From: Schaalia sp. ZJ405
GTDB taxonomy: Bacteria; Actinomycetota; Actinomycetes; Actinomycetales; Actinomycetaceae
Direction: 5' to 3'
Assembly (NCBI RefSeq): GCF_011038885.2
Contig: NZ_CP064952.1
Span: 1-64,000, forward strand
DNA: 64,000 bases
Part shown: positions 246 through 54,555 of the stretch, in pieces
How positions within the stretch are numbered: position 1 is the stretch's first letter
Layout of the letters: each line of letters begins with the position of its first letter
The notes under the pieces: generated by a model
What the model saw: only the letters and a program-made list of their open reading frames with translations
Databases searched by the model: none
Told to the model about the DNA's origin: nothing
Translations under genes and position numbers: made by a program

Positions 246-1847
246 GTGGAAACCGACTTCTTATCTCTCGCATGGAACAACGCCCTTGAATCTCCGCTGA
301 CTCAGAACCTCGGACGAGCCGCTCAAAGCTACCTGCGCGCCACCGTGCCACTGGGCGATATCGAAGGGACGATTCTCCTATCTGTTCCGAGCGAGTTCAT
401 TAAGTCGTGGATCGAAACGCGTGCTTTCACTGAAATCACCGCAGCACTGTCTCAAACCCTTGGACGCACCATCCGCATCGCGATTACCGTCGATCCTGAT
501 CAAGAGATCAACTCAACTTTCCCCAACGATCAATACATCGACGCTGACCCTGACTCTCACATGTCCTCGCTCCCCGATGACCCCACATCGGATCCCCTGG
601 CGAATCTCACAGCAGATCAGATATCCGACAGTGAAAGCGACGTTTTTACGAACACACCTCGGAGCATCGTCGGCGCAGCAGGCGATATTGCCGAAACACC
701 GATAAGCCCAGCGGCAAGCGCTGGTGACGACACAGGGGAAGGTGCGGCCTCGTCCTCGTCCCTTTATCTTCCCAGCGGAAAAACCCTGGATCTGCGCGGA
801 ACCCATCTCAACGCGAAGTACACCTTCGACACCTACGTCATGGGACCGAGCAACCGATTCGCGCACGCCGCCGCATTCAACGTGTCAGAGTCTCCGGGAA
901 CCCAGTGGAACCCTCTCTTTATCTACGGAGGCTCCGGGCTGGGTAAAACCCACCTCCTTCACGCGATCGGGCACTACGCGCTCTCGCTCTATCCTCACCT
1001 GAAGGTTCGCTACGTCAACTCCGAAGAGTTCACCAACGAATTCATTAACGCAATCCGCCTGAACAAGACGGATAACTCGCAGGTCGAAGCGTTTCACAGG
1101 CGCTACCGCGAACTCGACATCCTCCTCATTGATGACATCCAGTTCATCGGTGACAAAGAGCAGACAGTCGAAGGCTTTTTTCACACGTTCAACGCGCTAT
1201 ACGAGGCCGACAAGCAGATCGTCCTGACATCCGACGTCGCCCCGAAGAACCTCAACGGCTTCGAAGAGAGGATGAGAACCCGATTTTCCTCCGGTCTCCT
1301 TGTTGACGTTCAGCCACCAGACCTGGAGACGCGCATCGCGATTCTCCAGAAGAAAGCAACAGCCGATTCTCTTCAAGTACCACCCGAAGTTCTTGAGTAC
1401 ATCGCGTCGCGGATCTCGGCAAATATCCGCGAACTCGAGGGTGCTCTCCTGCGCGTGATCGCGTTTGCGAATCTGTCGAAAGAACCCATTGATCTGCAGT
1501 TAGCTGAGATGATGCTCAAGGACTTCATCTCAGATCCCGACGACAACGAGATCACGGTTCCGCTGATCATGGGACAGTGCGCGCACTACTTCGGAGTGAC
1601 GATTGAGCAGATGAGTTCAGCGGATCGTTCTCACGACGTTGTTCAGGCTCGCCAGATCGCGATGTATCTGTGCCGTGAACTCACTGATCTCTCTTTGCCA
1701 AAGATCGGCGATGCGTTCAACCGTGACCACACCACCGTCATGCATGCGAACCGGAAAATTGTCGCCGTGATGAAAGAGAAGAGAGAAACCTTCAACGATG
1801 TCACCGAGCTGACGAACCGGATTAAGCAGAAATCGCGCAATTCCTAA
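246..1847 (+). CDS. dnaA: Chromosomal replication initiator DnaA
   Basis: DnaA binds DnaA boxes in oriC, melts the origin and recruits the helicase. The 533-residue protein has an N-terminal domain I (about 1-88), a long acidic, low-complexity linker (about 89-180), and an AAA+ domain with Walker A GGSGLGKT near residue 230 and Walker B LLIDDIQ near 293. The C-terminal DnaA-box-binding domain carries the DHTTVMHA signature near 493. A GTG start is chosen because GGAGG lies at 235-239, a good distance upstream. The linker contains one copy of the dispersed GACGAGGACGAGG motif, read as SSSS. It heads the conserved dnaA-dnaN-recF cluster. Confidence 0.98.
   Translation: METDFLSLAWNNALESPLTQNLGRAAQSYLRATVPLGDIEGTILLSVPSEFIKSWIETRAFTEITAALSQTLGRTIRIAITVDPDQEINSTFPNDQYIDADPDSHMSSLPDDPTSDPLANLTADQISDSESDVFTNTPRSIVGAAGDIAETPISPAASAGDDTGEGAASSSSLYLPSGKTLDLRGTHLNAKYTFDTYVMGPSNRFAHAAAFNVSESPGTQWNPLFIYGGSGLGKTHLLHAIGHYALSLYPHLKVRYVNSEEFTNEFINAIRLNKTDNSQVEAFHRRYRELDILLIDDIQFIGDKEQTVEGFFHTFNALYEADKQIVLTSDVAPKNLNGFEERMRTRFSSGLLVDVQPPDLETRIAILQKKATADSLQVPPEVLEYIASRISANIRELEGALLRVIAFANLSKEPIDLQLAEMMLKDFISDPDDNEITVPLIMGQCAHYFGVTIEQMSSADRSHDVVQARQIAMYLCRELTDLSLPKIGDAFNRDHTTVMHANRKIVAVMKEKRETFNDVTELTNRIKQKSRNS
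744..760 (-). repeat. Dispersed motif copy in the dnaA linker
   Basis: Reverse-strand GACGAGGACGAGGCCGC. On the coding strand it is read as A-A-S-S-S-S inside the disordered DnaA domain II linker. Confidence 0.6.
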
Positions 1848-52183: not shown

Positions 52184-54555
52184 CGGAGGATCCCTTCGGT
52201 CAGCTCCATGCGGTCGGTGCATAGGGCGTCCAGCCCGTCGGTGTCATGCGAGATCACGAGGACGGCGAGGCCCTGGCGTCGCCGCTCGGCAAGAACGTCA
52301 ATGAGGAGTGACCGCGATTGGGTGTCAAGGCCCGCCATCGGTTCATCAAGGACGAGAACCTGAGGGTCGGAGGCGAGCAGCCCGGCAAGGGCCACGCGGC
52401 GCATCTGACCACCGGAAAGTTCGTCGATGCTCCGAGTCGCAAGATCTGGATCGAGACCAACTGAACGCATCGCTCGGTCAATGAGGTCCTGCTGTTCGCG
52501 TGGGAGCACTGCCGCATCACGGGTGCTTTGCCTGCCTCGGCGCCGGTGGGCAGCTCCTCGGCGCCTGAAGCGTCGAGGCTGCGTGGCGGCGTCATCATGA
52601 CCCACGACGGCATCTTTTTCGGAGCCGTTCCCAATGGCGGGGCCGTGACCTGCGGCGGCAAGGATGTCGGAGCGCACGGATGGGCGCTGGAGTTGAAGCC
52701 GGGCAAATTGCATCGACAGCGCGACATCTCCGATTCTTGAGGTCATCGGGTCTGAGCCGAGCGTGCACTTGCCCCACGTCGGCTCGATGAGTCCGGTGAG
52801 GATTCGTGACAGCGTCGTCTTTCCCGACCCATTTCCTCCGGTGATGAGAAGCCCCTGCCCGGGAGAGAGAATGAACGTGACATCGCGCAGGACCGGGTTC
52901 TCCCACGGGGTTCCCACGTCGTAGGTATGGGCAACGCCGTTGGCCCACAGGTGTTCACCGGGTGGACGATAGGTCGGCGCGTCCGGCATTGGCGCAGGAA
53001 TATCTGGGGTGTCCCTTTCCGTGGCCTGTGGATTGGAGGGGTCAGGTACCGGTGTCGCCGGATCGGGAGCGTTCTCGGATTCATTGGCGAGGACGAGCGC
53101 GGTTTCCCCAGACACAATGCGACCCTCGCGCACATGAATAACCCGGTCGGCACGCTGAGTCTCGGTCACGTCATGGGTGATGTGGACAACGCTTGTTCCC
53201 GACTGGGGAAGTGAAGCGAGGATGTCGAGAAGTTCCCGGCGGCCCTGCTGATCAATCATCGCCGTTGATTCATCGCTGATCAGTAGGCTGGGACGCCTCA
53301 CGAGAGCACCGGCCAACGACAGACGTTGAAGCTGTCCACCCGACAGGTGCCGCGTCAACGCGTCTTCTTGTCCTCCAAGTCCCACCGTGGCCAAAACAGC
53401 GGGAAGATCAACGCGGGCTCGCTCGTGGGCAGACAGCCCCCACAGGACATCGTCGGCAACTGTCTCACCGAGCATCTGCAACTCCGAGCGCTGTGACACG
53501 AAGGCCACTCCACGGTATTGCCCCAGGCGCGCCTCGCCCTCGCCATATTCGATGGTTCCCGCCGTTGGTTGCGCCCCGGCGAGAAGTAGCGCGAGCGTTG
53601 ACTTCCCCGAACCATTCGGCCCCTCGACAACAACGAACTCGCCCGCATTGATTGTGACGCTGACATCGGATAATGCGGGCTGCTGCGATCCTGGATAACT
53701 GAAGGACGCGTGACTGACGCGGACGGGAAGAGGTGAGGCGGCCTCGTCCTCGTCAATGATGAACGAGGACGAATCCCCTGGTGAGCGTGACGGAAGCGAG
53801 GAATCCTGTGGTGCGGTGCGAGTGGTCGAGGACGTCGCCGCAATGAGCGGGTCCCACCCGGAGGCCAGATCAATGCGTCGCAGGATCGCGCCGAGAAGCC
53901 AATATGCAATGACGACGAGCAGTGCCATTGAGATCAGTGACATGAGGGGAACCCATATCCACCAGGTATCCACAAGCACTGAGATTGCGTGTGACAGGGA
54001 TGTTGAGGCGCCCTGAAGACCGGGGATTTTACCCAGGAGCGTGACGTAGCCATTGAGACTGGTGCGGAAGGATTCAAGAAATAGGGTGCGCAGATCGTCG
54101 AGAATCCACAGGACACCCGTGACGGCTGCACCAACGATTCCCCCGAGGACAATTCCGGTGACAATGATCCCCGGCCAGCGCATCCCGCGGCGCATGAGGG
54201 AGCCAACGATCACTCCAACGATTGCCGACTGGGCAACCGTCCACACGCAGGACAATCCACCAACTGCCATCGTCATCAGGAGTGTTGTGACAACGGCGGC
54301 AACGGTGGCTCGGGGGCGCAAACGCACGGCAATCATCGCCAGAGGAACCGCCGAACCGACCTGGAGGAATAGTGCGAATGGGGTGATCACGGTGGCAAGG
54401 ATCCCCAGTGTCACCGCGAGGGATGCCAACGCCCCGCAGGTTGCGATGTCTGTTGGGCTCAGCGCCGCGGCGGTCTTTCGGACGGGGGTGGGCGTCACGG
54501 CGGATGTGGCGTGGTTGCGGCTGCGGAGGTGAGGACGGGAGGGTCTGGCTGGCAC
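52180..54555 (-). CDS. Fused ECF transporter: S component plus two ATPases
   Basis: One 791-residue chain combining three parts that are usually separate. Residues about 30-230 are six or seven helices resembling an ECF S component (DUF2232-like). Residues about 285-490 are the first ATPase (Walker A GPNGSGKS, LSGGQ signature, LLISDES Walker B). Residues about 540-790 are the second (GGNGSGKTT, LSGGQMRR, VLVLDEPMAGLD). Linkers contain further dispersed-motif copies. EcfT is encoded right after by an ATGA overlap. It takes up a vitamin, metal or similar substrate; which one is unknown. Confidence 0.85.
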   Translation of the reverse strand: MPARPSRPHLRSRNHATSAVTPTPVRKTAAALSPTDIATCGALASLAVTLGILATVITPFALFLQVGSAVPLAMIAVRLRPRATVAAVVTTLLMTMAVGGLSCVWTVAQSAIVGVIVGSLMRRGMRWPGIIVTGIVLGGIVGAAVTGVLWILDDLRTLFLESFRTSLNGYVTLLGKIPGLQGASTSLSHAISVLVDTWWIWVPLMSLISMALLVVIAYWLLGAILRRIDLASGWDPLIAATSSTTRTAPQDSSLPSRSPGDSSSFIIDEDEAASPLPVRVSHASFSYPGSQQPALSDVSVTINAGEFVVVEGPNGSGKSTLALLLAGAQPTAGTIEYGEGEARLGQYRGVAFVSQRSELQMLGETVADDVLWGLSAHERARVDLPAVLATVGLGGQEDALTRHLSGGQLQRLSLAGALVRRPSLLISDESTAMIDQQGRRELLDILASLPQSGTSVVHITHDVTETQRADRVIHVREGRIVSGETALVLANESENAPDPATPVPDPSNPQATERDTPDIPAPMPDAPTYRPPGEHLWANGVAHTYDVGTPWENPVLRDVTFILSPGQGLLITGGNGSGKTTLSRILTGLIEPTWGKCTLGSDPMTSRIGDVALSMQFARLQLQRPSVRSDILAAAGHGPAIGNGSEKDAVVGHDDAATQPRRFRRRGAAHRRRGRQSTRDAAVLPREQQDLIDRAMRSVGLDPDLATRSIDELSGGQMRRVALAGLLASDPQVLVLDEPMAGLDTQSRSLLIDVLAERRRQGLAVLVISHDTDGLDALCTDRMELTEGILR
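53082..53102 (+). repeat. Dispersed motif copy in the inter-ATPase linker
   Basis: CATTGGCGAGGACGAGCGCG, read on the minus strand as A-L-V-L-A-N. Confidence 0.5.
53738..53772. repeat. Dispersed motif inverted pair in the S-ATPase linker
   Basis: ATTGACGAGGACGAGGCCGC on the minus strand (read I-D-E-D-E-A-A) is followed by the oppositely oriented ACGAGGACGA at 53763-53772. The arms TCGTCCTCGT (53744-53753) and ACGAGGACGA form a perfect 10-bp inverted repeat. Confidence 0.65.

Follow-up and report, generated by a model that had tools for sequence, protein, structure and literature searches.

To our knowledge, sequences that mark DNA for uptake are established only in two Gram-negative families, the Neisseriaceae and the Pasteurellaceae. 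The DNA uptake sequence (DUS) of the former has a non-palindromic core, lies on both strands, in and between genes and in inverted pairs, and is read by ComP, a minor pilin on type IV pili. The uptake signal sequence (USS) of the latter comprises a core of roughly 9–10 bp with weaker, AT-rich flanks, and lies where proteins are under less constraint. Foreign DNA usually contains few uptake sequences. Chi sites, such as GCTGGTGG of E. coli, are short, G-rich and frequent, conserved across relatives and different between species, and HIP1 of cyanobacteria, GCGATCGC, is a palindrome. Neisseriaceae genomes carry very many DUS copies, with dialects that are consistent with phylogeny (PMC3630211). 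Here, we describe a word of about 20 bp with the core CGAGGnCG, noticed as a repeat in the first 64 kb of the Schaalia sp. ZJ405 genome (contig NZ_CP064952.1, positions 1 to 64,000; hereafter the window). The genome is a single contig of 2,345,961 bases. We consider that the word is probably a DUS- or USS-like uptake sequence with dialects, serving ComEA, ComEC and Tad genes.

The original prediction described a motif of about 20 bp repeated at least 15 times on both strands of the window, which proved real and undercounted. With up to three mismatches, the 20-mer matches the window 11 times, whereas 100 shuffles give 0.03 matches on average and never more than 1. At the 15 places named in that prediction the best match has 0–5 mismatches, with four or fewer at 13 of them and five each at 33433 and 53082, and CGAGGACG is present at all 15. 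Counting overlapping matches, the window holds 34 copies of CGAGGACGA and 59 of ACGAGGNCG. Across the genome, exact matches to the 13-mer ACGAGGACGAGGC number 154 (83 and 71 by strand; reversed word, 0), those to the 10-mer 664 (311 and 353; reversed control, 6) and those to the 9-mer ACGAGGACG 1039 (reversed control, 45). The genome is thus strongly enriched in a short, non-palindromic word, the core CGAGGnCG not being self-complementary. The 13-mer is found all along the chromosome, at a somewhat higher density towards the origin (variance/mean 1.10 over 24 bins), and 22 genomes of the same order outside the family contain 0 to 17 copies each.

The consensus of 38 intergenic CGAGGACGA copies is (A/G)(T/G)(T/G)(G/A)A-CGAGGACGA-(G/C)(G/C)C. 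Its upstream flank takes two common forms, ATTG and GGGG. The 57 intergenic copies of CGAGGACG agree with this picture. The full consensus of about 20 bp reads (ATTG or GGGG)ACGAGGACGA(G/C)(G/C)C, a conserved core with weaker flanks whose edges are graded and whose downstream side is GC-rich. In a sample that includes 6 kb of the genome twice, words with a single change to ACGAGGACGA at the first, seventh or last position are enriched 2.3- to 7.3-fold, and those changed elsewhere at most 1.5-fold, except for one change each at the fifth (9 vs 3.8) and sixth (4 vs 0.7) positions. From these tolerated changes we read the recognised core as nCGAGGnCGn; the enrichment of one-mismatch variants fits partial recognition of near-matches. 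A freely iterated position weight matrix came to follow codon periodicity and was abandoned.

The word has no fixed orientation. Strand was mapped against the direction of replication, a check suggested in the original prediction, and ACGAGGACG showed no polarity, the leading strand carrying 132 of 254 copies (p = 0.57). Nor is there a preferred orientation to transcription, which in tandem intergenic gaps runs the same way as 14 copies and opposite to 13. Per 100 kb, ACGAGGACGA numbers 27 in coding DNA and 39, 68 and 81 in tandem, convergent and divergent gaps, the gap densities resting on 17, 6 and 10 copies. Inverted pairs arranged as the arms of a hairpin are more frequent than expected, both for ACGAGGACGA (5 vs 0.64 expected; opposite arrangement, 2 vs 0.64) and for ACGAGGACG (5 vs 1.7 expected, p = 0.03).

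That DNA rather than peptide is conserved had been proposed from the various reading frames of the copies, and our counts bear this out. Genes were called with our own simple caller (86% coding), and ACGAGGACGAG was compared with 40 runs of synonymous shuffling over the window and twenty 20-kb stretches, 464 kb in total. Called genes contain 68 copies, against a shuffle mean of 5.2 and a maximum of 11. The excess extends to all three sense frames (observed/expected 4/0, 31/4.6 and 7/0.05) and all three antisense frames (9/0.42, 6/0.03 and 11/0.12), and 23 further copies are intergenic. The commonest frame (S1, 31 of 68) encodes Asp-Glu-Asp-Glu, but the frames are not confined to this acidic pattern. 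Because the excess over shuffles occurs in all six frames, and copies also lie between genes, the conserved entity is the DNA. Neither outcome that the original prediction named as refuting it was seen: counts are far above what codon usage would give, and an acidic-peptide pattern does not by itself explain the frames. When the middle base is left free, 484 kb contains 357 copies of ACGAGGNCG against 72.4 expected, and 57 of the look-alike ACGACGNCG against 55.6; the G003 samples in these shuffles with a free middle base, and in the Markov and codon-typicality counts, include 5 kb twice, where L097 and L117 overlap.

As claimed, four of the window copies are non-coding by our home-made caller (at 7722, 41016, 43567 and 49937). 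The proposed preference of coding copies for linkers was also supported, the copies lying in less conserved, indel-rich stretches of protein. Where the source genome's own coding copies have an orthologue, local amino-acid identity is 0.456, versus 0.605 for comparison (41 sites in 40 genes). Alignment gaps against these distant orthologues occur in 38 of 119 windows at the copies versus 185 of 2380 control windows, and 26 of the 41 sites are free of a gap in every orthologue found; the comparison leaves uncounted the 95 of 135 motif genes without an orthologue in the loci, and drops L076 genes past 14 kb. Weakly conserved stretches of this kind could accommodate a tag that acts at the DNA level. 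The evidence for a preference for gene ends is unclear: no more than 50 nt separates 8 of the 123 coding 10-mers from a 3′ end, against about 5 expected, a figure worked out by hand from 357 genes in 441 kb, with 6 kb of the genome counted twice.

Among relatives, the middle base of the word changes. Relatives found through DnaA (13 loci) are mostly titled Schaalia, Actinomyces or Pauljensenia, which places the source genome in their clade. Whole-genome counts of ACGAGG[A/C/G/T]CG in Schaalia sp. ZJ405 are 1039/285/257/218, and one middle base accounts for more than 50% of the four words in 20 of the 35 genomes counted from the genus: A in one (the source genome), C in 14 and G in five. These are raw counts, which in GC-rich members include a codon background; the excess of words in relatives was judged with a third-order Markov model. 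S. odontolytica has the C dialect, in which the counterpart of ACGAGGACGAGGC would be ACGAGGCCGGGGC. We placed 32 genomes on a tree based on LepA, HolA, ComEC and ComEA (LepA being used for 23 of the 32), leaving off one genome with a partial ComEC (G009) and two with no ComEC match (G021 and G029). C is the commonest base throughout the odontolytica clade (nine genomes, G031 to G028) and throughout a second C clade (four genomes, G016, G018, G024 and G026), and one genome, G007, has no preference. The dialects are consistent with the phylogeny, clearly so in the two C clades and more weakly elsewhere.

The four genomes sampled from two sister genera have their excess on CGACGnCG. Against synonymous shuffles, ACGACGNCG stands at 62 vs 14.6 and ACGAGGNCG at 13 vs 9.7 in G058, and at 49 vs 18.6 and 6 vs 12.3, respectively, in G060; for G062 and G065 the CGACGnCG excess was judged by Markov model only. 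Both words were also counted in 213 members of the family, as raw numbers uncorrected for codon usage. We observed that in these four genomes (L106–L110, L161–L175) CGACGnCG is often lengthened to the near-palindrome CGACGnCGTC, 5.6- to 16-fold over the Markov model. Among the loci of relatives, the records titled Sanguibacter keddieii 250_SKED (L059) and Xylanimonas cellulosilytica 352_XCEL (L060) look mislabelled, as they carry DNA 92–95% identical to an S. odontolytica locus (L061).

Orthologous loci were compared, as the original prediction had proposed, and the sites change by substitution and not by presence or absence through insertion. The test of maintenance covers the two C-dialect clades. 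For the odontolytica clade it used 13 loci of 17–21 kb in 76 ordered pairs, which share ancestry, are counted both ways and are not independent. Sites of ACGAGGCCG gave 629 ungapped and 4 gapped comparisons (104 unaligned ones were dropped), with an identity of 0.961 inside the word versus 0.846 in its flanks and 76% of comparisons intact. Sixty permuted words of equal CpG count gave 0.908 inside and 0.907 in the flanks (n = 4648), and 426 permuted words with fewer CpG gave 0.900 and 0.898 (n = 17217). Words of the wrong dialect showed little or no difference between inside and flanks (A, 0.861/0.901, n = 178; G, 0.891/0.852, n = 126; T, 0.940/0.931, n = 120). In the second C clade, CGAGGCCG had an identity of 0.935 versus 0.884 in the flanks, with 69.6% of 112 comparisons intact and 3 gapped; permuted words stood at 0.820/0.843 with 29.2% intact (n = 1725), and wrong-dialect words were 17–33% intact (n = 10–21). 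S. georgiae and P. hongkongensis, which have no clear dialect (8–19 sites per word), gave a mixed result, the G, A and T words lying slightly above their flanks and C below. The pairs G013/G017 and G001/G002 offered 2–9 sites per word, too few to use. With only 4 of 633 aligned sites gapped, sites arise and decay by substitution and not by insertion. Since the matching dialect word is conserved while its flanks diverge, selection or drive maintains the word separately in each dialect, and it is not copied in as a unit.

The genome also contains genes for competence. A ComEC match is found in 55 of 58 genomes, including the source genome, where ComEC adjoins ComEA, a protein with SLBB and helix-hairpin-helix domains. 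A T2SSE ATPase occurs at two loci, accompanied at the first by T2SSF and TadE proteins and at the second by Tad and DUF4244 proteins, the latter Flp-like by our reading. The actinobacterium Micrococcus luteus, which needs its Flp pili for transformation, carries comEA and comEC along with two tad-like clusters (PMC6370729).

These observations suggest the following scheme. A surface DNA receptor would prefer DNA with nCGAGGnCGn in the consensus of about 20 bp; candidates are ComEA and a minor pilin of either Tad/Flp-type locus. Preferred DNA would enter through ComEC and then recombine. Because word-bearing DNA would be taken up more often, point mutations and biased recombination would build up the word at sites where the encoded protein can accommodate it. 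Drift in the preference of the receptor could then yield species dialects, with A in the source genome, C or G in relatives and CGACGnCG in the sampled members of two sister genera. In this scheme the word would label DNA as that of the cell's own kind, as the DUS does in Neisseriaceae and the USS in Pasteurellaceae. Such a drive would explain most of the features at once. The suggestion in the original prediction that the repeat resembles uptake sequences agrees with the excess in all frames, between genes and on both strands, the non-palindromic core, the dialects, the maintenance of the matching dialect and the competence genes; the scarcity in foreign-looking genes that would go with it was not seen.

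Several observations weigh against so simple a story. Codon-atypical genes are not depleted, the ratio being 5.9 in the least typical quartile versus 3.1 in the most typical. The density of ACGAGGNCG in intergenic DNA, 81 per 100 kb, is close to and no higher than the 86 in coding DNA, and in two of the other samples the intergenic density is lower. Support is poor at several deep nodes of the dialect tree. One genome, G032, has little or no excess of ACGAGGnCG (7 vs 4.0, shuffle maximum 7) and nevertheless keeps ComEC- and ComEA-like genes, and the S. georgiae and P. hongkongensis loci have little or no excess either. As ComEC is nearly universal, its presence does not discriminate. With ter placed at 1.1 Mb, the 13-mer leans towards the lagging strand (92 vs 62 leading, Fisher p = 0.023), although this lean was not upheld with the 254 9-mers. 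Lastly, we infer uptake bias as the selecting process, and the receptor protein stands at the level of candidates. In G032, we also observed a different enriched word, TGAGGCAAAG (12 vs 0.7 in 120 kb; L156–L160, L129), which may be another dialect or part of a repeated gene.

The main rival is a Chi-like role, in which the word would switch an AdnAB/AddAB-type helicase-nuclease from degradation to recombination, and the cell's own DNA would be repaired instead of destroyed. It owes this place to an adjoining UvrD-helicase and PD-(D/E)XK nuclease gene pair (L077, 13185–19922) that is AdnAB-like by our reading, and the word is, as Chi sites are, short, G-rich, frequent, conserved among relatives and different between species. 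The missing leading-strand bias (132 of 254, with the 13-mer leaning the other way, 62 leading and 92 lagging) weighs against it, as do the extended consensus of about 20 bp and the hairpin-oriented pairs, which are not features of Chi, and we regard this role as unlikely. A little less likely still is a binding site for a chromosome-organising or segregation protein, be it a nucleoid protein, an FtsK-orienting site or a terminus-type site. Spread over the whole chromosome and conservation at the DNA level in two C clades would suit such a site, but the lack of polarity excludes an FtsK-orienting one, and the word, unlike matS or parS, is neither palindromic nor confined to the terminus. A parS-like palindrome, GTTTCACGTGAAAC, exists separately in relatives, clustered with 3–6 copies per locus (L103, L051–L062).

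The word could also be a self-marker in a self/non-self or defence system distinct from uptake, shielding DNA from, for example, a nuclease or the capture of CRISPR spacers; a spelling that differs by species and the maintenance of the matching dialect would fit this as well. The window contains a Cas9-type CRISPR locus, but no partner protein was found for the word, and we hold this to be improbable. That the word is a small mobile repeat, REP- or MITE-like and copied by a transposase, draws on the greater frequency of gaps at own coding copies in comparison with distant orthologues (38/119 vs 185/2380 windows); against this, most own sites (26/41) lack a gap in any orthologue found, the copies share only about 20 bp with graded edges, and close relatives are gapped at just 4 of 633 aligned sites. 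The dispersed repeat offered as an option in the original prediction is therefore unsupported in the mobile sense, and its probability is very small. Smaller again is that of a by-product of codon usage, mutation bias or an acidic DEDE peptide. It would account for the commonest frame, Asp-Glu-Asp-Glu in 31 of 68 copies, but not for the excess over synonymous shuffles in all six frames, the intergenic copies or the reversed words, found 0 (13-mer) and 6 (10-mer) times; moreover, the dialect word is conserved, whereas permuted words of equal composition are not.

Copies of the word in the window, with the genes in which they lie.
Feature	Position	Strand	Setting
Motif copy GGGACGAGGACGAGGCCGCA	743..762	-	In dnaA, antisense to the gene; domain II linker by the original prediction and by our reading
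Motif copy TTGACGAGGACGGGGCCGCT	7722..7741	-	Intergenic, between genes 5657-7696 and 7756-10323
Motif copy	13047..13066	+	PntA/alanine dehydrogenase-type gene 12266-13909, DEDEAA frame
Motif copy TTAACGAGGACGAGGCTACG	15959..15978	-	ADP_PFK_GK-domain gene 15524-16747
Motif copy	27658..27677	-	DUF6049 gene 26209-28593
Motif copy TTGACGAGGACGACGCCGCG	28479..28498	+	DUF6049 gene 26209-28593
Motif copy, GAGCGCGC form	33427..33446	-	Near 3′ end of DUF5692 gene 33423-34508
Core copy ACGAGGACG	35971..35979	-	Second DUF5692 gene 35726-37027; absent from earlier list
Core copy ACGAGGACG	37164..37172	+	Intergenic; absent from earlier list
Motif copy TTGGCGAGGACGAGCGCGCG	39223..39242	+	3′ end of MATE gene 39220-40635
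Motif copy	41016..41035	-	Intergenic
Core copy ACGAGGACG	43472..43480	+	Near 5′ end of gene 42459-43505; absent from earlier list
Motif copy TTAACGAGGACGAGGCCGCC	43567..43586	-	Intergenic
Motif copy TTGACGAGGACGAGGCTGAA	49937..49956	+	Intergenic
Motif copy	52058..52077	+	CbiQ-family (EcfT-type) gene 51308-52222
Motif copy	52133..52152	-	CbiQ-family (EcfT-type) gene 51308-52222
Motif copy, GAGCGCGG form	53084..53103	+	ABC-ATPase/DUF2232 gene 52180-54555
Exact 20-mer	53737..53756	-	ABC-ATPase/DUF2232 gene; left arm of inverted pair with copy at 53763
Core copy ACGAGGACGA	53763..53772	+	Right arm of inverted pair with 53737..53756
Core copy ACGAGGACG	56824..56832	-	Gene 56161-58353; absent from earlier list

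The two DUF5692 genes fall within 4 kb, each with a copy of the motif. In the CRISPR locus of the window (59594–60504 and 60864–63998), a repeat 15-mer recurs 15 times at an exact spacing of 64 bp; the locus also has a Cas1 gene, and its Cas9 reading frame continues to the window edge.

Taking the family as a whole, we give about an even chance to an uptake code with dialects at two levels, CGAGGnCG or CGACGnCG by genus and the middle base by species, read by a new Gram-positive type of receptor on the Tad or ComEA machinery, in which changes of spelling would act as mating barriers between species. In the full-text literature, with most subscription journals and all preprints outside, we found no report of uptake sequences in Actinomycetaceae among the matches listed (in part the best 20 of 33, 20 of 283 and 15 of 1,544). 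If the word does serve uptake, it would represent a third, Gram-positive origin of such sequences, and sequence-tagged DNA exchange would have evolved independently on a different uptake machine. Its dialects would then form a ready natural set for testing which protein recognises words of this kind and what selects them. Such an origin would also be relevant to the question of what DNA moves between the oral species of Schaalia and Actinomyces.

Of the systems with which the word can be compared, the competence of M. luteus involves the same kinds of machinery genes as found in the source genome, though the accessible text of that report mentions no uptake sequence (PMC6370729). The word shares with Chi a short, over-represented, species-specific and G-rich sequence, but has a longer consensus and no leading-strand bias. 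Like HIP1, it is a very abundant short word of unsettled purpose; a HIP1-type palindrome is ruled out by the lack of self-complementarity in the core, and the word, unlike HIP1, has dialects. It resembles the USS in its short core with weaker flanks and its place in less constrained protein regions, and differs in an unrelated sequence and in a downstream flank that is GC-rich where USS flanks are AT-rich. From the DUS it differs in sequence and in phylum, in the Tad-type and ComEA/ComEC genes that stand here in place of ComP (for which no search was made), in the divergence of the sampled genera between CGAGGnCG and CGACGnCG, and in being known from sequence alone. The likeness to the DUS is nonetheless extensive: a non-palindromic core on both strands, genic and intergenic copies and inverted pairs are all found in the source genome, and its clade has, as the Neisseriaceae do (PMC3630211), many copies in dialects consistent with phylogeny.

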